A DNA stretch of 64,000 nucleotides from a virus, in the IMG/VR virus record IMGVR_UViG_3300035681_000002, positions 114,754 through 178,753 of that record; one strand, 5' to 3'. Below the pieces are notes generated by a model, which worked only from the letters and a program-made list of their open reading frames with translations, did not search any database and was not told the origin of the DNA. This document shows, in pieces, positions 4,059-64,000 of the stretch (position 1 is the first letter of the stretch; every line of letters begins with the position of its first letter). Position numbers and translations under genes: made by a program.

Positions 4059-7000
4059 ATGTTGAATACGACCGTTGGACAACTGTTAATTAATGATGTC
4101 CTTCCGGAAGAGTTGAGAGACTCTCATCGTGTGCTAGATAAAAAAGGGCTGCAATCTTTATTACAGCAAGTGGCACAACAACACCCAGAGCGTTATAAAG
4201 ACATTTCTTTTAAGCTAAGTGGTCTTGGCCAAAGCATGGCTCAAGAGCAGGGTGGCATGTCTTTTGGTCTTCGCCATTTGCAAGTAAGCAAAGCGGCATT
4301 AGCTTCTCGCCAGAAAGTTAGAGCAACACTTACCAACATTCTATCTGACGAATCTTTGACAGATCAGCAGCGAAATGAGCAGATTATTCGTGCCGTTGGT
4401 AAAGAAAGTCCAGAACAACAAAAACAAGTACTTGCAGAGGCATTGCTAAATAAGAATCCGCTTGGGATGCAGGTAATGTCAGGTACGCGCGGTAAGTCTA
4501 TGAATTTAACTAGTTTGTTAGGTTCAGACATGCTGTATTCGGATCAGCGGGATGATGTGATTCCAATCCCTGTACTGCGTAGCTACAGCGAAGGGTTGTC
4601 CCCTGCCGAGTATTGGGCCGGAACCTATGGGGCACGTAAAGGTATTATGGCAACTAAGTTTGCCACACAAGATGCCGGATTTTTTAACAAACAACTTAAT
4701 CAAACTAGCCATAGATTAGTGGTAACCGGAGAAGATGCCGAAGAGGCAGAAGATGCACCTATTCGAGGATTGGTAGTAGACACTGATGACGCAGATAACG
4801 AAGGAGCACTGCTAGCTCGGGCTGTTGGCCCTTATGCTCGAAACACTCCCCTTACTCCGAAAATACTGAATCATTTAAAACGGCTTGGCACATCTAAAAT
4901 CTTAGTACGATCTGCCCTCGTAGGTGGATCTCCCGATGGTGGTGTTTATTCTAGGGATGTAGGTATTCGGGAAACTGGAAAGCTTCCAGGGCTTGGCGAG
5001 CAAGTTGGGTTACAGGCTGCACATGCTTTAAGTGAACCGATTAGCCAAGGTCAGCTATCTGCAAAACATTCGGGTGGAGTGGCAGGTCAAGAAAAAGCTG
5101 TCAGCGGTTTCCAGTATTTAAACCAATTAGTGCAAGTTCCAAAGAAGATGCAAGGCGGGGCAGCGCATGCACTAAAAGATGGAGTAGTACAGCGTATTGA
5201 GGAAGCTCCTGCGGGTGGTAGCTATGTAACCATTGGAGATAAACAACATTATGTAGGGGCTGGGTTTGATCTTAAAGTAAAAAAAGGAGACGAGGTAGAG
5301 GCTGGGGATGTAATTAGCTCAGGAATTCCTAACCCTGCTACTATTACAGAGCACAAAGGGGTAGGCGAAGGAAGACGCTATTTTGTTAATGAGTTTCGTA
5401 AGGCAATGGGTGACAGCGGAATGTTCGGGCACAGACGAAACATAGAGGTATTAGCTCGAGGTCTTATTAACCATGTAAGGCTGACAGAAGAAACAGATGA
5501 CCATGTACCTGACGATATTGTTCCTTACTCTACGCTTGAGCACACTTACAAACCACGAGAAGACCACCAGCGATTAACTCCTAAGCGAGCACTAGGTCAA
5601 TATCTTGAACGACCTATACTGCATTACACTATTGGTACTAAAATTCGACCTTCTATGCTTAAGAATTTTCAAGATTTTGAAATCAATGAAATTCCAGTAC
5701 ACAAGAACCCTCCGCCATTTGAGCCCCACATGGTTCGTGGTTTGTATCAAATGCAGCATGATCCTGACTGGATGACTCAAATGTATGGGTCTGGTTTAAA
5801 GAAAAGTTTCTTAGATTCTGTGACTCATGGGGCTATCAGCGAAGAACGAGGTACAAGCTTTGTTCCTAGTTTAGCAATGGGTCTTGATTTTGGAGAAGGT
5901 AAAGACCATGCGGTAATAAAACCTAAACCTAGCTATGAGCTACCTGCAACTCCTACTCCTCCTGCATTAAAGCCTATAGCACCTAGCAACGCTCCTTTTT
6001 TTGGCGGTCGTTTTACCCCTGGCCAAACTAAGCTTGCGATGGACTCTGTTCCAGATGTTTCTAAACCACCTTCCGTTTCTAAGCCTCCTGCCGTCTCTAA
6101 ACCGATACCCAATACCCCTGCTACAGAATATATGGGCGGACCAGCCCCAAGGAATGGGTCAAATTCCCCAGAACATATGGAAGGCGGGGTTGCCCCTCGT
6201 AATAATACTGAACCTCATCCTTATACCCCAGCAGCTGACCTTAGCCCAAATATCATGCCAGCTCTGCCACCTACCCCTGCACCTACTCCTGCGCCTGCAC
6301 CTACTCCTGCCCCCGCCCCATCACTGTATGACACATACAAAGATACTGACGCAAAGGGCGATCAGGGCACTTCTGCTTTAGCCCCTCCGCCCGCATCTAC
6401 ACCTACCCCAACCTCAAATTCGGATCAATTTAATCACTTTAATTATTTGATGCAAAATAATTCTAATTTTGCAGGGCAAGCTGGGCAGATGTTAAATCAA
6501 AATCCTTTAATGGGGCTTATGATGTTAGGTGGGATGGCTGGTGGTGGTAATTTTCAACAGCTATTTAATTCGAGACCCTCACAAGGATTAGCTACAAGTA
6601 ATAATAATGGGTTGTGGGGTAATATGCTTAATATGTTTGGGGGTGGTGCCCAAAACAACAGCGGACAAGGACAACAAAATTTAAACCAAAGCCCGCAATC
6701 TAATGCACCTAGCAGCAGTCCTACCCCAGCTGCAAACCAAGGTGGGATGTGGAATAGCATGCTTAATATGTTTGGTGGCGGTTCCCAGCCTAGTGCCCCT
6801 ACAGCATCTGCTCCTACAGTAGACTCGCCTACAGAGGAAAAACCAGCAGCCCGCTCGGGTCCAGATACAGGTACAGCATTTGGGTATGCTGCTCCAATTG
6901 GCTACAATGGTATAAAAAATACAATTATGGCACCTAAACCACCTGCATTTCCTACCACTCCGCCTCCTATACCCGGAAGCCCGCCCCCCTTTCCTACAAC

Positions 7001-7991
7001 TCCACCACCTGTGCCTGGTAGCCCCCCGCCATTGCCTAAAGGTCCACCCCCATTACCTAAAGCACCTGCAGGTTATGTAGGTAAAGGATTTTCAGCACTT
7101 ACTAAAGGAGTAGGAAAAGCTCTGCCATTCCTTGGTGCAGGTATGGAAGCTTATAGCGTTGGTTCAGACATAGTAGATAAAGGTTGGGATAATACAACCA
7201 ATGATGCAGCACAAAACTGGAGAGACATTCTTTCGTTTAAAGATGGGCTGCATACAGCATGGCAAGCCCCTGCACAAGCTCTTAACCCAGTGGCTAATGC
7301 GCAGCTAATAGCTGGGGGTGCAACTCAGACAGCGGGGATGCTTGGGGAGCAGGCTGGGATGGCCGGTGAAGCTATTCGTGACAAAGTAACTGGAACTGAT
7401 GCTCGTTCCCGTGCCTCGGTGGCAGACAAAACGCAAGTTAATGCAATGGAAGTAGAAAAGCAAAAAGGTCTAGAAGCACAATTAGCTTTGACTAAACCGC
7501 AGAATTTAGAAGGTACTGCAGATTTAAAAGCACAAATACAAGACGCTAAAACTAGACAAGGAAATACAGCGGATGAAACAGCTAACTGGAGACTAGGCCA
7601 ACAAAATTGGTTTGGTAGTGGCGGACACAAATTCCGTGATGCCATGCAAAATTCGGTTACAGCTGCGGACACAGAACTAGCAGAGTTAAAAGCTAAGGGG
7701 GAGCTAGACGCAGGGGGGCAAGCAAGGCAGGAGCAGTTATTAAATAGACAGGCACAGCGTAAGCAGATGATGGGTACTTACGAGCGAGAGGGTGGTTCTT
7801 CAGGTAAGGGCTTGTTTAGCACGGACATGCGTAATCGAGTTAATGGGCTTAAAGAAAACATTGTGGCAGTTGAAGCACAACTTCGAGATACTTCTCTTCC
7901 GCCAGAACAAAGGGCGAAACTAGAATCCCAATTGAGAACTAACAATGAAGATCTAGCGGAGTATCGAGGATGGGCAGAAAGTTCTAAATGA
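4059..7991 (+). CDS. RNA polymerase beta-prime C-terminal part with long Pro/Gly/Asn-rich extension
   Basis: This gene supplies the part of beta-prime missing from the gene ending at 2408. It opens with MLNTTVGQLL, the block that normally follows the DFDGD domain. The bridge-helix region lies at about 178-222 (EYWAGTYGARKG, then HRLVVTGEDAEE), the trigger-loop base GLGEQVGLQAAHALSEP at 311-327 and KHSGG at 336-340, with beta-prime C-terminal domains to about 600. The segment VRSALVGGSPDGGVYSRD aligns with the second zinc-binding site of bacterial beta-prime, but its cysteines are absent. Residues about 620-1310 are not polymerase: they hold Pro-rich tracts, an Asn/Gly/Gln-rich part with two MLNMFGGG copies, PPPIPGSPPP-type repeats, a hydrophobic patch near 1010-1050 and a charged helical end. 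The extension may serve packaging or anchoring, which is inference. The ribosome site is weak. Confidence 0.93.
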   Translation: MLNTTVGQLLINDVLPEELRDSHRVLDKKGLQSLLQQVAQQHPERYKDISFKLSGLGQSMAQEQGGMSFGLRHLQVSKAALASRQKVRATLTNILSDESLTDQQRNEQIIRAVGKESPEQQKQVLAEALLNKNPLGMQVMSGTRGKSMNLTSLLGSDMLYSDQRDDVIPIPVLRSYSEGLSPAEYWAGTYGARKGIMATKFATQDAGFFNKQLNQTSHRLVVTGEDAEEAEDAPIRGLVVDTDDADNEGALLARAVGPYARNTPLTPKILNHLKRLGTSKILVRSALVGGSPDGGVYSRDVGIRETGKLPGLGEQVGLQAAHALSEPISQGQLSAKHSGGVAGQEKAVSGFQYLNQLVQVPKKMQGGAAHALKDGVVQRIEEAPAGGSYVTIGDKQHYVGAGFDLKVKKGDEVEAGDVISSGIPNPATITEHKGVGEGRRYFVNEFRKAMGDSGMFGHRRNIEVLARGLINHVRLTEETDDHVPDDIVPYSTLEHTYKPREDHQRLTPKRALGQYLERPILHYTIGTKIRPSMLKNFQDFEINEIPVHKNPPPFEPHMVRGLYQMQHDPDWMTQMYGSGLKKSFLDSVTHGAISEERGTSFVPSLAMGLDFGEGKDHAVIKPKPSYELPATPTPPALKPIAPSNAPFFGGRFTPGQTKLAMDSVPDVSKPPSVSKPPAVSKPIPNTPATEYMGGPAPRNGSNSPEHMEGGVAPRNNTEPHPYTPAADLSPNIMPALPPTPAPTPAPAPTPAPAPSLYDTYKDTDAKGDQGTSALAPPPASTPTPTSNSDQFNHFNYLMQNNSNFAGQAGQMLNQNPLMGLMMLGGMAGGGNFQQLFNSRPSQGLATSNNNGLWGNMLNMFGGGAQNNSGQGQQNLNQSPQSNAPSSSPTPAANQGGMWNSMLNMFGGGSQPSAPTASAPTVDSPTEEKPAARSGPDTGTAFGYAAPIGYNGIKNTIMAPKPPAFPTTPPPIPGSPPPFPTTPPPVPGSPPPLPKGPPPLPKAPAGYVGKGFSALTKGVGKALPFLGAGMEAYSVGSDIVDKGWDNTTNDAAQNWRDILSFKDGLHTAWQAPAQALNPVANAQLIAGGATQTAGMLGEQAGMAGEAIRDKVTGTDARSRASVADKTQVNAMEVEKQKGLEAQLALTKPQNLEGTADLKAQIQDAKTRQGNTADETANWRLGQQNWFGSGGHKFRDAMQNSVTAADTELAELKAKGELDAGGQARQEQLLNRQAQRKQMMGTYEREGGSSGKGLFSTDMRNRVNGLKENIVAVEAQLRDTSLPPEQRAKLESQLRTNNEDLAEYRGWAESSK

Positions 7992-40894: not shown

Positions 40895-41632
40895 ATGATG
40901 GACGATTATTTAGAAGACGAATATAAACCAGCATTTCAAAGCTGGCAGCAGAATCAAACACCAGAAGGCAACGCTGCCTTACTAAAAGCACTTGATCCAA
41001 TAGTACAAAAGGGGGTCAAGATGTATGGTGCAGATAGTCCATTAACGTCTAGCCGTGCCAAGCTGTTAGCATTGGACGCAGTGCGTAAGTACGATCCAAA
41101 GCGGTCCCGCCTTCAGTCGCACTTGTTAACCCAGATGCAAGGGCTTCGTAGGATTAACCAGCAGCAGCATCAAGTAATAAGCGTACCTGAACGCATCTTG
41201 CTAGAGAATCAAAGGTTACACGGATCTACACAAGAGCTGTCAGACGAGCTTGGGCGAGATCCTACTGACGCAGAACTATCAGACAAGCTGGGGATAGCTA
41301 TGCCCCGTCTTGCAAAGATTCGTAGCTATCAGCCCGGAGTTAACACAGGAAGATTAGATGCAATTGACCCATTAGCGGGAGGTGCTCCAAGTGTAGTTCC
41401 TAACCAGCAAGCTAGTGCAGACCTATGGGGTGAAGTAGTTTATCAAGGGCTAAGTCCTTTAGACCAGCGCATCATGGAACTGACATTGGGAATGCGTGGA
41501 AATAAAAAACTATCAAATCAAGAAATTGCTGCCAAGCTTAATCGCAGCCCAGGTGCTATTACCCAGCGTAAAACTAAGATACAGCAATTGCTGGATCAAG
41601 AACAAAAATTGTCTCCTTTTATTCCGAGGTAA
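40895..41632 (+). CDS. Sigma-70-like RNA polymerase factor
   Basis: 245 aa with an AAGGAG site. Residues about 60-95 (RKYDPKRSRLQSHLLTQMQG) resemble region 2 of sigma-70 (the DPxRx-x-F/L pattern and following basic helix). Residues 112-145 (STQELSDELGRDPTDAELSD) are a near-textbook region 3 (LxxELGRxPTxxELAxxLG). Residues 184-232 (LSPLDQRIMELTLGM, then LSNQEIAAKLNRSPGAITQR) are region 4 with its helix-turn-helix for the -35 element. The conserved region 1 is absent. It probably gives promoter specificity to the phage polymerase encoded at 1-8 kb. Placement between the hub and the gp25/gp6-like genes is unusual and may mean it is packaged or co-regulated with late genes. Confidence 0.85.
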   Translation: MMDDYLEDEYKPAFQSWQQNQTPEGNAALLKALDPIVQKGVKMYGADSPLTSSRAKLLALDAVRKYDPKRSRLQSHLLTQMQGLRRINQQQHQVISVPERILLENQRLHGSTQELSDELGRDPTDAELSDKLGIAMPRLAKIRSYQPGVNTGRLDAIDPLAGGAPSVVPNQQASADLWGEVVYQGLSPLDQRIMELTLGMRGNKKLSNQEIAAKLNRSPGAITQRKTKIQQLLDQEQKLSPFIPR

Positions 41633-42889: not shown

Positions 42890-44551
42890 ATGGCATTAAG
42901 TTTTTCTAGTGCAGACTTGTCCAGCCTAACTTCATTAAATTCAGCAGATGTGCAACAGCTGTTAGACCGGCTTGCGACTCAGCTGCAGGAATTAAATCCT
43001 AGTCTGGATCTAAAGCGAGGGGTATTTAAGGATACTGTTGCCTATTACCATGCCGTGCTAGAGGCTTCAATCCGTGCTAGTTTACGCCGTTATCAATCTG
43101 CAAGAAGCTTACAGCAGATTCAGATAGACCCTACATTAGCGGACGATACCGTAGTAGACGAAGTGCTATCTAACTGGGGTATAACTCGTAAAATTGGAAC
43201 TAAAGCAATTGGGTCCATTACTATTGAGTTGAACCAAGCACGCTCCATTAATATCCCAATTAACTTTTCATTCGAGTCTAATGGTAAACGATATTTTGCT
43301 ACCAAAACATTTACATCTCGGCCAGTAACCACACAAGTATCTTTAGACACTGACCGATTATTACAGCTTTTAAGCAATGGTAATTGGGCATTTACCATAG
43401 AGGTGGAAGCAGAGAGCATTGGGGCTACTTACAAGTTAAACGCTGGTGATTCGATTGTACCTACCCGATCTATTACAAATTATGTGACTAGCTATGTTAC
43501 TTCTAATTTCTTAGATGGCACAGGGGCGGAAACTAATACAGAATTGCTGCAAGAACTTCAATTAGGTATTGCTGCAAAAACTTTATCTAACCGCACTAAT
43601 ATGCGATCTTTTCTACGATCAATACCCGCATTTGATTCAGTTACTAACCAATCTATCATTGGGTATGGCGATGCAGAAATGCTACGGGATAGGCATACAG
43701 TGTTCCCCATTAGTTATGGTGGAAGGGTAGACTGGTATATTCGAGGTCAATTGCCTTTACAGCGTACCCGCTTATTAGTTACAGCAGTATGCGTTGAAAT
43801 TGCAGCAACTAGTAGCACTTGGCAATTTTCAATAGGTAAGGACGATGTACCTGGATTTTATGAAGTTACAAAAATAAAAAATGTAATAGATGCAGGTTTA
43901 AATTCCGGATTTGAACCTATTAGTGATACCCGCTCTAACGATTTAACCGCAGCGGGTTTTTTACCAGATATCGCAACGGTAGCTGAAGGTGCTTATTCGG
44001 CATTCCAAGCTACAGTTATACGCTTTGTAGATACCTCCACTTCTGTTACTACACTTACAATAGGACAAACAGCTCAATATTTTTGTGATGTTACGGGAAC
44101 ACCTTTTATCCGACAAATTCAAGAACTGATTGGAAGTCGGGATGTGCGAAGTTATGCTGCAGACGCATTAGTTAAAGCCCCTATTCCTTGTTTTGTTGAA
44201 GTTACTTTAACCATTAATAAAACAGCGGGTGATACTGCTCCTTCGATTGCAGCGATCAAGGCAGCTGTTGTGGATGTAGTGAACAGCACCGATTTTATAG
44301 GTAGGTTAGACGGTTCCCGAATTATTGAAGCAGTACACGGATTTTTACAAAATAGTTTAAGTGTAACTGGCTTAGACTTGTTTGGACGCATACGCAATCC
44401 AGATGGGACAATGCAGTATCTAAGAGATTCAGATTCGTTGATAATACCAGACCAACCGGCTAAAATGGTTACGGCTAAAACTGTACAGTTTTTTACAGAA
44501 ATTTCTAAGGTATCAGTTAATATTGTTTCGACCATTTATACGGCAAAATAA
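42890..44551 (+). CDS. gp6 / gpJ-like baseplate wedge protein
   Basis: 553 aa. The N-terminal half follows the baseplate J layout: LDRLATQLQELNPSLDLKRG, helical YHAVLEASIRASLRRYQSAR, the GSITIELNQARSINIPINF beta domain, then TNTELLQELQLGIAAKTLSN with NMRSFLRSI. The C-terminal domain (FVEVTLTINKTAGDTAPSI, then VNSTDFIGRLDGSRI) is characteristic of the same family. It follows the gp25-like gene and is the last clearly conserved wedge gene before the accessory cassette. High confidence. Confidence 0.85.
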   Translation: MALSFSSADLSSLTSLNSADVQQLLDRLATQLQELNPSLDLKRGVFKDTVAYYHAVLEASIRASLRRYQSARSLQQIQIDPTLADDTVVDEVLSNWGITRKIGTKAIGSITIELNQARSINIPINFSFESNGKRYFATKTFTSRPVTTQVSLDTDRLLQLLSNGNWAFTIEVEAESIGATYKLNAGDSIVPTRSITNYVTSYVTSNFLDGTGAETNTELLQELQLGIAAKTLSNRTNMRSFLRSIPAFDSVTNQSIIGYGDAEMLRDRHTVFPISYGGRVDWYIRGQLPLQRTRLLVTAVCVEIAATSSTWQFSIGKDDVPGFYEVTKIKNVIDAGLNSGFEPISDTRSNDLTAAGFLPDIATVAEGAYSAFQATVIRFVDTSTSVTTLTIGQTAQYFCDVTGTPFIRQIQELIGSRDVRSYAADALVKAPIPCFVEVTLTINKTAGDTAPSIAAIKAAVVDVVNSTDFIGRLDGSRIIEAVHGFLQNSLSVTGLDLFGRIRNPDGTMQYLRDSDSLIIPDQPAKMVTAKTVQFFTEISKVSVNIVSTIYTAK

Positions 44552-44565
44552 ATAGGAGTTGACAT

Positions 44566-45468
44566 ATGTCACTAGAGCAAAAAGGGCGGGTAGAAGCTAT
44601 CCGTTTATTTAAGAAAAATGGAAGTGATAAAAACTCTCCACAAGCAATGCACTTTGCGATGGACTACCTAACTTTCTTTGGTTATGTCGCCATTGATTTG
44701 CTTCAGAACATGGACTATGCCAAGCTCGAAGCAGCAGTCAAAACATTTCAACGCATGTTTAATTTGAAAGTAGATGGGGTTATTGGGCCTAAAACTTTAC
44801 GAGCCATGGAAACTCCTCGTTGTGGCTGCCCTGATAAGCTTGATCCTAAAAATAAACAACATATCCAGTTTATGGAAGCTCAAGATGTTGCGGAGAAGCA
44901 GCGTAATCGATGGAATAAGAATGGGCTTACTTTTGCTGTTCAACAGTATGTCACAGGGCTAGGCAAGCCAACGCAAGATAAAATACTAGCTGCAGCCTTT
45001 AAAGCTTGGGACGATGTGTGCGGTTTAAACATTACCCGAATCAAAGACGCAAAGAAAGCAGACATTGCGATTGCTACAGGTAAGGGAATACAGCATAATT
45101 TTGATGGGAGAGGTGGTACGCTAGCTTGGGCTTATATGCCAAAAGGGAATGACCAACAACTAACAATGCGGTTCGATCTGGATGAAACTTGGATTTCTCA
45201 GCCTACGGATCGTGGAGTTATGATGTTAAATGTTGCTTGCCATGAATTTGGGCATCTTCTTGGGTTAGACCACTCAAAGAATGCTGGGGCACTGATGGCC
45301 CCCTACTATAACCCTTTTGTAAGCGGTCCCCAAGATAATGATGATATTAAGCGCATTCAAAAACTATATGGGAAAAATGAAAATGCAGTAGGGGTTAAGA
45401 AAGAAACAAAAAATACATTAGCCGTAGAGTTGCACAAAGGGCAGAAATTAGTTGTCACTTGTGTTTAA
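44566..45468 (+). CDS. Matrix-metalloproteinase-like protease with peptidoglycan-binding domain and cysteine switch
   Basis: 300 aa with an AGGAG site. Residues 5-80 are a PG_binding_1 fold (LEAAVKTFQRMFNLKVDGVI, then GPKTLRAM). Residues 84-90 are PRCGCPD, the exact cysteine-switch pattern (PRCGxPD) by which matrixin zymogens hold their zinc. The catalytic domain follows: FDGRGGTLAWAYMP at 179-192, then RFDLDETW, the zinc site HEFGHLLGLDH at 226-236, Met-turn ALM at 242-244 and the C-terminal DDIKRIQKLYG. Structural-zinc histidines usual in this family appear replaced (LAWAY for LAHAF, RFD for HFD), so only the catalytic zinc is likely. There is no signal peptide. It lies after the gp6-like gene and may be virion-borne. 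Confidence 0.9.
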   Translation: MSLEQKGRVEAIRLFKKNGSDKNSPQAMHFAMDYLTFFGYVAIDLLQNMDYAKLEAAVKTFQRMFNLKVDGVIGPKTLRAMETPRCGCPDKLDPKNKQHIQFMEAQDVAEKQRNRWNKNGLTFAVQQYVTGLGKPTQDKILAAAFKAWDDVCGLNITRIKDAKKADIAIATGKGIQHNFDGRGGTLAWAYMPKGNDQQLTMRFDLDETWISQPTDRGVMMLNVACHEFGHLLGLDHSKNAGALMAPYYNPFVSGPQDNDDIKRIQKLYGKNENAVGVKKETKNTLAVELHKGQKLVVTCV

Positions 45469-45480
45469 AGGAGGTGTCCT

Positions 45481-45876
45481 GTGATTATAGGTGAAATTGT
45501 AATAGATTTGGCAGGGTTAATTCCTTGGGTTAAACCTATTTTAACCATTGTGCTGCTAGCTATTGGAATAGTTTTTTTTGCAATTCCTTGGATTAAAGAG
45601 CTAACCTCTCGCTTTGTTTCTGATATTCCAAACATTCTTCCTCCCGCACCTACCCCCGCTCCTAAAACTCGCAATAGCGATGCCCCTGCACCTGCAGGTA
45701 TTGGGGAGTTTCTTAAAATTATTGAAGCGACTTCACCTAATGCTAATCCTTCCATTTGGTGGGAGTATGCGAAAGCCGAGATGACAGAAGCACAAGTAGC
45801 CATTACGGAAGCTAAACTAGCTAGACGCAATGACTGTACCCCTAATGTCGTTAAACCTGAAGAAGTAAAAAATTAA
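45481..45876 (+). CDS. Small membrane protein with Pro-rich linker, 131 aa
   Basis: Starts with GTG after a very strong AAAGGAGGT site. Residues about 15-41 form one hydrophobic helix (WVKPILTIVLLAIGIVFFAI), followed by a Pro/Ala-rich linker and a C-terminal helix (WWEYAKAEMTEAQVAITEAK). It is the first of four or five small membrane or exported proteins in this cassette. It could be a holin, an antiholin or a membrane anchor for the proteases. No family is recognised. Confidence 0.65.
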   Translation: MIIGEIVIDLAGLIPWVKPILTIVLLAIGIVFFAIPWIKELTSRFVSDIPNILPPAPTPAPKTRNSDAPAPAGIGEFLKIIEATSPNANPSIWWEYAKAEMTEAQVAITEAKLARRNDCTPNVVKPEEVKN

Positions 45877-45891
45877 CTTAGGAGACTTACT

Positions 45892-46248
45892 ATGTCTTTG
45901 CGTTATCTAGGACTGCTGAGTGGTGCTTTTGGGCTATTCTTATTGATTGGGCCTTTTCAATGCGATTCAACTGCATTTGTTCCAAGTACCCCCGTTGCCT
46001 CTCCTAAGCAAGTATTTGCGACCTATGAGCAGCTATGGCGGGCCCATGCTCAAGCTGCAGCGGACAAGCTGGCTTCTGGCGATATTAAGACAGAACAAGA
46101 AGCTTGGGATTTTATTGCAGCAGGACAAGAACCTGCCCGCAAAGCTGCCTTTAAAGAGCTAGCAAAAAGCGAACAAGATTATTTTGTCAAACAAGGCGGA
46201 TGGTCTGCCAAGGCACATGAAAAACTATTAAGGAGCTATGCAAAATGA
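45892..46248 (+). CDS. Small exported or membrane-anchored protein, 118 aa
   Basis: The N-terminal 23 residues form a signal-like or membrane-anchor segment (LGLLSGAFGLFLLIGPFQC). The Cys at 24 is in a lipobox-like but non-canonical position (PFQC). The remainder is helical and charged (AHAQAAADKLASGDIKTEQE, then LLRSYAK). The next gene overlaps by 4 bp. A signal-anchored periplasmic protein is likely. Its relation to the neighbouring proteases is inferred from their spacing only. Confidence 0.65.
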   Translation: MSLRYLGLLSGAFGLFLLIGPFQCDSTAFVPSTPVASPKQVFATYEQLWRAHAQAAADKLASGDIKTEQEAWDFIAAGQEPARKAAFKELAKSEQDYFVKQGGWSAKAHEKLLRSYAK

Positions 46249-47066
46249 GTGAAACAAAAATGTCAGGTAATTGGAAAAAAGAAAAAGAAGATTACAGCTT
46301 TATTCGTAGTCTTTCTCGAGTTCCCATGTCTACCCCTTTATGGAAAGCATTTGCCCGCCCCGCAGAAGTAGACATTAAGTGGCATCGCAACGAAGACCAA
46401 GGACAAATTGGAAGTTGCCAAGGTCATTCACTTAGCTCAGTGCTAGAACGATTAGCCTTGGTACGAGGTGAAACTGTACAGCTATCTGAGATTTTTGCTT
46501 ATCTTTCTTCTCAGAAATTAGATGGACTTCTTGGCTCCGATGATGGCTCTACTATCTCCGGAGGATGCCAAGTTGGTCTTGAATATGGCTGTTGTCCTGA
46601 ATCTCTTACTGGTTATCCTAGTGGTTATCCTAGAAGGGCAGATCGAGAAGCTATTTTAAGCGCTGCCAACTATGAAGCTGCACTTCCTTACAAGGCACTG
46701 TCTTTATGGGAAGTTCCAGATGATCATGACAAGGTATTAGATTTTATTGGTGGCGGAGGTGCAATTAACTTTGGTATTGCTTATTACGATGGATATATAC
46801 CTGATGATCGAATTGTGCGGAGTTATCAACCACGACGCAGTGGCGGTGGGCATGCAATGTGTGTTTTAGGCTATGACAAAGATGGTAATCTTAGAGCTGC
46901 CAACTCATGGGCAGATGGCGGTTATTTGATTACACCCAAGGCTTGGAAACAGATGATAGAGTATTCAGATACGGCTGCAATTGGGTTGATGGGCAACAAG
47001 GAAGCTGTTCCAGTTGATTGGTATAATAATTCTCCTTACTACAAAATGAGGTTAAAACCAGAATGA
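46245..47066 (+). CDS. Papain-like cysteine peptidase
   Basis: 273 aa overlapping the previous gene by ATGA. Residues 50-60 (EDQGQIGSCQG) carry the papain oxyanion Gln and the nucleophile Cys58. His203 lies in SGGGHAMCVLGYD and Asn220 in RAANSWA, giving the full C1 catalytic set in the right order, with the typical GGHAM and NSW contexts. There is no obvious propeptide or signal peptide, and the sequence is about the length of the C1 catalytic domain. Papain-type peptidases are unusual in phage genomes and are not standard lysis enzymes. Immediate proximity to the metalloprotease suggests a joint role in dismantling a proteinaceous host barrier, which is inference. Confidence 0.88.
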   Translation: MSETKMSGNWKKEKEDYSFIRSLSRVPMSTPLWKAFARPAEVDIKWHRNEDQGQIGSCQGHSLSSVLERLALVRGETVQLSEIFAYLSSQKLDGLLGSDDGSTISGGCQVGLEYGCCPESLTGYPSGYPRRADREAILSAANYEAALPYKALSLWEVPDDHDKVLDFIGGGGAINFGIAYYDGYIPDDRIVRSYQPRRSGGGHAMCVLGYDKDGNLRAANSWADGGYLITPKAWKQMIEYSDTAAIGLMGNKEAVPVDWYNNSPYYKMRLKPE

Positions 47067-47461
47067 AAAATCTATTAACAGTTATTCTTAATGCGTTTGC
47101 ATTTGGGTTGATCTGCTTTATAAGTTTTATAGTTCTTCGACCTATTAGCTCTGCTTCTACATCTACGGAGCTACCCGCAAGCGTACAAGCTAGCTTTGAT
47201 AAAGATTTAAATGAAGCTATCCTTAGCAATCAAAAGACTCAGTTAGAGCTGCTAACCGAGCAGAAAATGATATTACAAAAGATCGATGCAAATGTAAATC
47301 GGTTGGTAGGAGAACCTGCTATTGTAGCTCCTACCTCACCTAAGTTAATTGAAGTTAGAGAAGCGGTAGAAGTCGAACCTTCTTTTTCTTCGACTACTTC
47401 TCGTGGGCTATTTCGTAGAGGCAGCACAGTCCGTCAATCTACTGGTACCCCAAGTAAATGA
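47063..47461 (+). CDS. Small anchored protein with coiled coil (spanin-like)
   Basis: 132 aa starting within an ATGA overlap. Residues 5-27 form a membrane helix (LLTVILNAFAFGLICFISFI), followed by a helical region (NEAILSNQKTQLELLTEQKM) and a Ser/Thr-rich tail. The N-terminal helix, coiled coil and flexible tail resemble inner-membrane spanin subunits in general layout. No homology is recognised. Confidence 0.55.
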   Translation: MKNLLTVILNAFAFGLICFISFIVLRPISSASTSTELPASVQASFDKDLNEAILSNQKTQLELLTEQKMILQKIDANVNRLVGEPAIVAPTSPKLIEVREAVEVEPSFSSTTSRGLFRRGSTVRQSTGTPSK

Positions 47462-47502: not shown

Positions 47503-47784
47503 ATGAACTATCCAGTCAAAATTCCTTCATTTGCTTATGACTTGTTACGCAGTTTGCTGCAACGAGGTGTAGTGGAACACGAAGGTAAACGTTTAGATTT
47601 TTCAGAAGTGCAAGACATTAAGATCAAACAAGGGGTGATGACTTTTAATCCTCCGGCTAAGGTAAGTATGGCGGTCGGCCCCCTTAACATAAGAACTACT
47701 ATGTCTTCTCTTACTGCAGGGGCTGATGGCGTGGAAGTTGAAATTGATTATTCTCCCATTAATATCAAAGTGAAACCCCAATGA
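47503..47784 (+). CDS. Small hypothetical protein, 93 aa
   Basis: Not recognised. It has a GGAAAC site. The sequence is mainly beta (VEHEGKRLDFSEVQDIKIKQ, then VGPLNIRTTMSSLTAG), with no signal peptide. The next gene overlaps it by 4 bp. It sits between the spanin-like protein and another small membrane protein and probably belongs to the same accessory transcript. Confidence 0.6.
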   Translation: MNYPVKIPSFAYDLLRSLLQRGVVEHEGKRLDFSEVQDIKIKQGVMTFNPPAKVSMAVGPLNIRTTMSSLTAGADGVEVEIDYSPINIKVKPQ

Positions 47785-48113
47785 ACTGGACAGAATTAAC
47801 AGAAGAATGTTGCAATGAGCAAGGCTGTGCAATGTCTAATTTCCCTAAAACTAGGGTGACTCTTGCAGCTAAACGGCTCACACACGATCTGCTAAAAAAG
47901 CGAGAAGATGTTCGTCGAGTTGCACTTGCAGTAAGGAAAGCGTATGAAGCTAATCCTAATGGCACAGAAGAACAAATACGCAAACAAGCTGTTAAGTTTA
48001 TCACAGGCGGTCTTATCTTTTTCTTTATTGGTAGTTTCCTTTTAAACCAAGTGATGAGCATGGCATTAAACTGGTTTTTAAAACGTTTGTACCATCCAGA
48101 GCAGGGTAAATAA
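47781..48113 (+). CDS. Small protein with C-terminal membrane helix, 110 aa
   Basis: Overlaps the preceding gene by 4 bp. Residues 1-70 are charged and helical with an acidic Cys-containing start. Residues about 72-95 form a hydrophobic helix (GGLIFFFIGSFLLNQVMSMA) followed by a short basic tail. The layout fits a tail-anchored inner-membrane protein such as a holin partner. It overlaps the 48113 gene by one base (TAATG). Confidence 0.6.
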   Translation: MNWTELTEECCNEQGCAMSNFPKTRVTLAAKRLTHDLLKKREDVRRVALAVRKAYEANPNGTEEQIRKQAVKFITGGLIFFFIGSFLLNQVMSMALNWFLKRLYHPEQGK

Positions 48114-49669
48114 TGGCATATCGCTACCCACAGAATGATTTAGATAATGCCGATTTACTTTTAAATCTTTTAGGAAGTTTTTGGGCAACAACTTATCAAG
48201 GTAATAAGTTAATTTCGGATTTAACCGAAGTGACAGGGCAAATGGCACAGCAAACCTATGCTCAACTTATGGAGCTTGTGAATAGCATATCTAGATTTAA
48301 GGTACCAATATTTCATCAAGACAACTGGTATGCTTTGCGTTTTCGTGAGACGGATTTAAATATAGATACAAACTTACTGCCCAAGCATAACGAGCAGACT
48401 TCACAAACTTATATTTCCGATAATTCGCTAACTTATGGTCAAGCTTTATCCACTCCTTATTTTGTGCTTACTAAACCTAGAGGGCTGGTAGAAGTAAAAT
48501 TAATATTCAATCGGCTGACAAACCCTACTGTGGAACTAGTTCAAGGAGTGGACTATTGGTTAGAAGACACAACCATCGTTTTTCGAGAGAATCCATTTAA
48601 AAACAATCTAATAGCGAAACGAGATTTATTAAACGATAGCGGTGAAATTGTAGATAAAGAAATAGTATTGTGGATGTATCGTGGAAAGTGGGATTGGTAC
48701 ACGACTTACAAGCAATTTGGCTATGTTCTTCGCTTGCAATTAAAATCCAGCGAAAACTATAAGCAATTCATTAATGCAATATTTGATGCTTTTGTAAGCG
48801 GAACAAGCATTCGCACGCAACAGCTAGCCTTAGCTGCTGCCTTTGGAGTGCCTTTAGTAATAGAGGCAAAAGAAGTTGTTGAAAGAATAATTAGAGACGC
48901 AGATAAACTTAATATCTTTACAGATCAGCATGTTTATCGTTTCCCTCTAACAGCAACACCTACCGTCTTTATCCATCAGCAAGTAACAGCTGGGGATAGT
49001 CTTACAGATCTTCTCCAAGTATTTGAGTTTAACCAAGGCAAACAAATTGATCCGCAGGATATAGGTGCACTTTCGGCTGGAGTAGGACTTATACCTTATG
49101 GGTTCCAAGGTGAATTAGTCTTTGAAAACATTGAAACACCTATAATTGTTGAACTTGGAGTCGATGGATTTACCAAGGTATCTTGGAAAATTGGTGGATT
49201 CCCATTTGATGCCGATAAGTTTTGGGACGACACGCACGCAGCAGGGGTAGCTAAAAATCAAACGCTTGCCATGCTTTTAGATAGGCGAGCAACCCCCATA
49301 GGGCAACCAACTGCTGCCATGCTCCCCGGTATGATAAACCCACTACAATTTCTTACAGATAATGTTTTACGCAATAACGCTTATGTAGTAAAAATTAAGG
49401 CTGGAATTTCTAGAACAACTCGACTTCCTTTCGTGCCTTCTGACCAGTTACGCAAAATTCAGCCCCCACATACCTTAATGTTATTAAATGTTGAATTGGT
49501 CTATGACGACACTCATGTTATCATGGAGACCTTGGGTACGGAAACGAGTGCAGGGTATGAGGAGAATTTATCTTCTTTTCCATGTATGGTAAATGCAGAG
49601 AGCCTACTACCCGCTTTATATATGTCTGAACAAGTACGAGCTACCATAATTGGTGGTCGTTGCATTTGA
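48113..49669 (+). CDS. Baseplate or tail protein after the accessory cassette
   Basis: 518 aa, start overlapping the upstream stop by one base. The N-terminal part is helical (LLNLLGSFWATTYQGNKLIS), and the middle contains beta-rich segments with LTKPRGLVEVKLIFNR. Near residue 285 the segment FIHQQVTAGDSLTDLLQVFE resembles a LysM-type motif loosely. It resumes baseplate-type genes after the protease/membrane cassette, so it is probably a peripheral baseplate component. No family is certain. Confidence 0.6.
   Translation: MAYRYPQNDLDNADLLLNLLGSFWATTYQGNKLISDLTEVTGQMAQQTYAQLMELVNSISRFKVPIFHQDNWYALRFRETDLNIDTNLLPKHNEQTSQTYISDNSLTYGQALSTPYFVLTKPRGLVEVKLIFNRLTNPTVELVQGVDYWLEDTTIVFRENPFKNNLIAKRDLLNDSGEIVDKEIVLWMYRGKWDWYTTYKQFGYVLRLQLKSSENYKQFINAIFDAFVSGTSIRTQQLALAAAFGVPLVIEAKEVVERIIRDADKLNIFTDQHVYRFPLTATPTVFIHQQVTAGDSLTDLLQVFEFNQGKQIDPQDIGALSAGVGLIPYGFQGELVFENIETPIIVELGVDGFTKVSWKIGGFPFDADKFWDDTHAAGVAKNQTLAMLLDRRATPIGQPTAAMLPGMINPLQFLTDNVLRNNAYVVKIKAGISRTTRLPFVPSDQLRKIQPPHTLMLLNVELVYDDTHVIMETLGTETSAGYEENLSSFPCMVNAESLLPALYMSEQVRATIIGGRCI

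Positions 49670-58403: not shown

Positions 58404-64000
<5,597 letters not shown>

Follow-up and report, generated by a model that had tools for sequence, protein, structure and literature searches.

What does a phage do with a protease built like an animal matrix metalloproteinase (MMP) and encoded among its tail genes? The question is raised by an open reading frame (ORF) at 44566-45468 (+ strand) of a 64,000-nt stretch of viral DNA, referred to here as the window, which forms positions 114,754 to 178,753 of the 178,753-base record IMGVR_UViG_3300035681_000002. The ORF starts with ATG, encodes 300 amino acids, and has a good ribosome-binding site (AGGAG) 9-10 nt 5' of its start.

Zymogen architecture of the window protein

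The Pfam domain Peptidase_M10 covers residues 115-269 of the window protein (3.3e-36), and the protein scores 125 bits against the curated matrixin profile PF00413, whose cut-off is 24. A prodomain with the PG_binding_1 fold precedes the catalytic domain at 44665-44808 (+; residues 34-81, Pfam PG_binding_1 3.3e-10) and is the sole PG_binding_1 match across the 178,753-base record. The PG-binding domain named in the first-pass annotation is present, but, as in animal MMPs, it is itself the inhibitory prodomain and not an additional domain beside it. The cysteine switch PRCGCPD, which contains Cys86, follows at 44815-44835 (+; residues 84-90, pattern match). A degenerate DNA pattern for this peptide has a single match in the window and none in 100 shuffles, so a chance occurrence is not expected.

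Alignment places the calcium-site motif FDGRGGTLA at 45100-45126 (+; residues 179-187), the catalytic zinc motif HEFGHLLGLDH at 45241-45273 (+; residues 226-236), and the Met-turn ALMAPYY at 45289-45309 (+; residues 242-248). The calcium-site acids are also present in the alignment, with D180, D204, and E207 at the D175, D198, and E201 positions. In other words, the protein combines HExxHxxGxxH, including the catalytic Glu, and a Met-turn with the PG_binding-type prodomain and PRCGxPD switch of an MMP-type zymogen. Every element of the zymogen layout that had been listed from the letters alone was recovered by Pfam, pattern match, or alignment. The ligands of the structural zinc are gone: in MMP-3 numbering, the H168 and D170 positions hold a gap and Ile, H183 is replaced by Trp (W188, the residue right after the calcium-site motif), and H196 by Arg. 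The N-terminus, MSLEQKGRVEAIRLFKK, shows no signal peptide and no hydrophobic or transmembrane segment by hydropathy and sequence.

The closest solved structure in the PDB is human proMMP-9 (2.7e-30), with a match that spans the prodomain to the end of the catalytic domain. An AlphaFold2 model built from 21 sequences has a pLDDT of 84.1 and a pTM of 0.80. Foldseek aligns the model with the whole zymogens proMMP-3, -9, and -10 over about 250 columns, with TM scores of 0.80-0.84 normalised to them. Residues 85-86 form a short bridge in this model, which holds no metal, and the predicted bridge is what would be expected if the switch peptide crossed the cleft. The matrixin is under purifying selection: its dN/dS is 0.04 and 0.08 against two close relatives, as low as that of the neighbouring tail genes. 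Judged by its sequence, the ORF is a genuine matrixin (M10) zymogen.

An endolysin identity was considered and rejected. The PHROG endolysin matches span the PG_binding part and extend at most over the linker and the start of the catalytic domain. Because the catalytic domain is M10, the window protein is not a peptidoglycan-cleaving endolysin. Searches of the whole record returned no SLT, phage-lysozyme, or M15_4 domain, a Pfam search of 69 ORFs of about 130-420 aa (to 1e-3) found no peptidoglycan hydrolase family, and no endolysin was among the 25 PHROG families listed for the record. The absence of a peptidoglycan hydrolase is suggestive only, and the phage may still have an endolysin that escaped recognition. 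A collagen-like ORF spans the junction of the two record ends, so the record is probably near complete; it also looks circularly permuted. It also encodes several glycosyltransferases and methyltransferases, a SET-domain protein, and a tubulin/FtsZ-family protein. Segments of a multisubunit RNA polymerase lie at 3-2408 and 4059-7991 (+), with Rpb2 domain 6 joined to Rpb1 domains 1 and 2, and Rpb1 domain 5. Such polymerase segments and a tubulin/FtsZ-family gene recall phiKZ-like jumbo phages.

A phage family of matrixins

Does the window protein stand alone? Scanning viral contigs with an alignment of phage proteins plus MMP-9 gave 23 loci, and the gene is carried by a group of large, uncultured phages. 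The scan patterns favoured conserved M10 motifs and may miss divergent phage members, so the family size is a lower bound. The 17 full-length phage homologues are 41-96% identical in local alignments, and all 17 keep the switch Cys (RCG), the catalytic motif, the Met-turn, and the calcium-site acids. Matrixins usually have a structural zinc site of three His and one Asp, which lies outside the catalytic definition. The first-pass annotation had reported the histidines of this site as lost in the window protein, and the loss proved to be general: all four ligands are missing in every full-length phage protein (17/17). The H183 position is always Trp, and the H196 position is Arg, Lys, or Glu. 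The ligands are retained in all three human MMPs and in nearly all of the bacterial matrixins sampled. The phage clade provides a natural test of the purpose of this site. One contig (L024) carries a second, adjacent matrixin copy at 4243-5589, which has a signal-like N-terminus and a long N-terminal region and lacks both the switch prodomain and the structural-zinc ligands.

A phylogeny had been proposed with bacterial, plant, and animal matrixins and was run with bacterial and three human ones. It placed the phage proteins in one clade of their own (100 SH-aLRT) in an unrooted tree. An origin from animal MMPs was considered; the human MMPs fall between the phage clade and the bacteria in this unrooted tree, with which a bacterial and a eukaryotic origin are both compatible.

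A complete MMP-like proenzyme in a phage baseplate cluster was at first thought striking; the layout as such is not unusual in prokaryotes, and many bacteria have it. What was already known is the zymogen architecture in animals and bacteria, as well as single annotated phage M10 proteins. Plants also have this architecture. Phage matrixins as such are not unprecedented, because viral predicted structures include M10 proteins of tailed phages. As far as our searches reach, what is new is that these phage proteins form a clade and family of their own, that this family has uniformly lost the structural zinc site, and that it behaves as cargo in a tail cluster. INPHARED (50,697 phage records) held no homologue to the window protein or to two divergent members, and a phage matrixin family of this kind did not turn up in literature searches. 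A 2025 survey of MMP gene transfer mentions neither viruses nor phages (PMC12587646). Because of this omission, phages appear to be an overlooked reservoir, and a possible vehicle, of MMP genes.

An optional cargo site behind the baseplate gene

The gene directly upstream of the matrixin, at 42890-44551 (+), encodes a Baseplate J or wedge-like protein (Pfam 1.4e-9; phrog_6 baseplate wedge 1.7e-19), and this order is conserved in relatives. Further upstream in the tail module, a sigma-70-like protein with region 3/4 similarity is encoded at 40895-41632 (+), a position kept in nearly all Baseplate-J relatives. When viral contigs were scanned with an alignment of the Baseplate-J protein, 24 close relatives were found. 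Their core order is Baseplate-J followed by the tail gene that lies at 48113-49669 (+) in the window. In the window and in 12/24 of these loci, the matrixin and accessory genes lie between the two; the 12 loci include two pairs that are identical or nearly so. The matrixin is absent in 9/24, where Baseplate-J abuts the next tail gene or is separated from it by a small gap or an unrelated ORF, and another cassette replaces the matrixin cargo in the remaining 3/24. Because roughly half of the relatives lack the matrixin or have another cassette in its place, it is cargo and not a core baseplate gene. Its assignment to a baseplate cluster is therefore right as to position, directly behind Baseplate-J, but not as to a fixed part of the baseplate.

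In the window phage, the cargo genes encode a papain-like protease and four small proteins that each have a single hydrophobic segment. The first small protein (45481-45876, +), which adjoins the matrixin in eight loci, has a strong hydrophobic segment at residues 20-38, and the second (45892-46248, +) has an N-terminal one by hydropathy and is possibly exported. The papain-like (C1) cysteine protease follows at 46245-47066 (+). It was recognised by a profile match to the cysteine protease PDB 3ois (7.8e-17); it had no Pfam match and no signal peptide was seen. Its residues C58, H203, and N220 are invariant in six phages. Divergent papain-like sequences were noticed by eye in the same cargo site of two relatives, L118 and the matrixin-less L126. 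The next gene (47063-47461, +) encodes an N-terminal hydrophobic anchor and then, by eye, a possible coiled coil. It is followed by a gene for a 93-aa protein of unknown function that is conserved in the cargo (47503-47784, +) and by a gene whose product has a C-terminal hydrophobic segment at residues 70-88 (47781-48113, +). The mix of a papain-like protease and four proteins with hydrophobic segments resembles a lysis or envelope-attack cassette.

Other members of the family have different companions. The cargo of L015, L017, and L018 encodes instead secreted CxxCH cytochrome-like proteins and a repeat-rich protein, with signal-like N-termini. A related cytochrome-like gene lies beside the matrixin in L020 and L021, which have different backbones, together with genes for small CxxCH and repeat-rich proteins; one of these backbones carries an integrase. 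CxxCH cytochrome-like proteins with signal-like N-termini and VQHV-repeat proteins were observed beside the matrixin at L125:8655-11942, L131:8620-11668, L129:8155-11778, L020:3351-5829, and L021:3649-5929, and those of L125, L129, and L131 are part of the tail operon. For the matrixin neighbours in L016, L019, and L022, neither PHROGs nor Pfam assigned a function. A weak match to 'Planctomycete cytochrome C' (PSCyt1, 9e-4) was found in L015/L017, and the cytochrome-like neighbour was matched in 6/294 planctomycete versus 1/299 pseudomonadote genomes. These sequence matches suggest planctomycete (Planctomycetota) hosts for L015/L017, a suggestion that does not extend to the window phage.

Possible roles and known systems

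How might such an enzyme be used? We strongly infer its latency from the sequence, and we infer its activity, activation route, late timing, and target. Our preferred reading, held tentatively, is that the matrixin is a latent protease made late, restrained by Cys86 and carried as optional cargo for breakdown of the host envelope at lysis or in the virion. Late synthesis is probable because the gene lies in a tail cluster. Without a signal peptide, the protein would probably be made in the reducing cytoplasm of the host, where a free thiol would serve as a good latch during virion assembly: the Cys86 thiolate would bind the catalytic zinc, keep the enzyme off, and protect the phage's own assembly. 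The envelope would be reached at lysis or inside the virion, and the prodomain would then be cleaved, or the thiol oxidised. Cleavage could be carried out by the matrixin itself or by the adjoining papain-like protease; the latter is not a universal activator, because it is missing from several matrixin cassettes. The active enzyme would cut host envelope proteins and add to envelope breakdown and would not be a structural part of the baseplate. With modest confidence, the accessory status of the gene and its small hydrophobic-segment or secreted neighbours favour a released envelope-attack enzyme over a structural baseplate role. Counting against the lysis reading is that matrixins cut proteins, not peptidoglycan, and a location right behind Baseplate-J is also compatible with a virion protein.

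This location bears on a second explanation, close to what was first proposed for the gene, in which the zymogen sits at the baseplate or tail tip, is activated on contact, and cuts the host surface layer at adsorption or DNA injection. Such a virion-borne entry protease would fit the matrixin's place directly 3' of Baseplate-J in two divergent lineages, its PG-binding-like prodomain, its missing signal peptide, and selection as strong as that on the baseplate genes. However, the gene is optional in the tail module, it sits among genes for secreted proteins in other backbones, and no baseplate-anchoring domain was recognised in the protein, which makes an entry role somewhat unlikely. The secreted neighbours point to a third explanation, in which the matrixin is a moron-type host-modification protease. 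It would belong to a mobile envelope or secreted set that alters the host surface, for example for superinfection exclusion or receptor removal. The cytochrome-like and repeat-rich cargo with signal-like N-termini in L015, L017, and L018 would fit, as would the similar set beside the matrixin in L020 and L021, which have other backbones, one of them with an integrase. We consider this clearly unlikely for the window protein, as the matrixin itself has no export signal and the window phage's cargo lacks the cytochrome-like and repeat-rich genes.

A further candidate substrate lies within the phage itself. A giant collagen-like ORF with long repeats and at least 1,986 codons starts at 58404 of the window, runs to 64000 (+), and continues at the other end of the record (L110:1-). 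Most matrixin-bearing genomes of the tail family have a gene for a long collagen-like protein about 14-16 kb downstream. A strong collagen-repeat match (E<=1e-8) was found in 11/12 matrixin-bearing versus 2/11 matrixin-less genomes of this family (Fisher p=0.0006, or 0.005 with near-copies merged; the genomes are related and the counts are not independent). A maturation protease that trims structural proteins of the phage itself, perhaps the very long collagen-like one, would account for this association, but it is very improbable, as the lineages are related, L015 has a matrixin without collagen and L130 and L137 collagen without a matrixin, matrixin contigs outside the tail family show weak or no collagen matches, and a latency switch suits cytoplasmic work poorly. 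The collagen-like protein as substrate is a lead, not a result.

If the preferred reading of a latent envelope-attack enzyme is right, phages may use inhibitor-gated proteases against the cell envelope, besides peptidoglycan and polysaccharide enzymes. A bolder proposal, which we regard as improbable, is that large phages recruited a cysteine-switch matrixin without structural zinc as a proteolytic lysis or entry enzyme that replaces the classical endolysin, in hosts with a protein-dependent envelope.

The nearest known systems share parts of this design. Animal MMP zymogens (proMMP-1, -3, -7, -9, and -10; MEROPS M10A) have the prodomain fold, PRCGxPD, HExxHxxGxxH, Met-turn, and calcium motif in common with the phage matrixin, whereas the latter has no signal peptide, hemopexin domain, or structural-zinc ligands. 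Bacterial matrixins with a PG_binding-like prodomain and an RCG switch occur in Sphingomonadaceae, Flavobacteriaceae, cyanobacteria, actinobacteria, and Paenibacillus. They resemble the phage protein in layout and size, and many have no obvious signal peptide, but they are only about 32-37% identical to it and keep the structural-zinc ligands, and many bear long C-terminal repeat regions, unlike the phage protein. Latency in karilysin, another bacterial matrixin, depends on an aspartate switch and not on a cysteine. Its M10 catalytic domain (PDB 2xs4) is shared with the phage protein. MMPs of insect viruses (granulovirus, nudivirus, ascovirus, iridovirus, and entomopoxvirus) are likewise virus-encoded matrixins, but they belong to animal viruses, have other layouts, and are mostly 20-28% identical to the phage matrixin in structural alignments.

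A functional parallel comes from Listeria, in which a prophage-linked metzincin and a partner lipoprotein (Mtz/Tim) make the cells sensitive to phage lysins (PMC8235301). This metzincin is likewise phage-associated and affects the cell wall and lysis; however, it is secreted by a signal peptide and paired with a TIMP-like lipoprotein, and no cysteine switch is mentioned (PMC8235301). Among tailed phages, annotated M10 proteins are those of Maribacter phage Colly_1, Lactobacillus phage 3-521, and uncultured Caudovirales (A0A6J5P205), as well as A0A6J5RTD2. They share the metallopeptidase fold at 13-18% identity, and most matches cover the catalytic domain; for A0A6J5RTD2 the alignment spans 280 columns, and this protein may be a full-length, though distant, relative.
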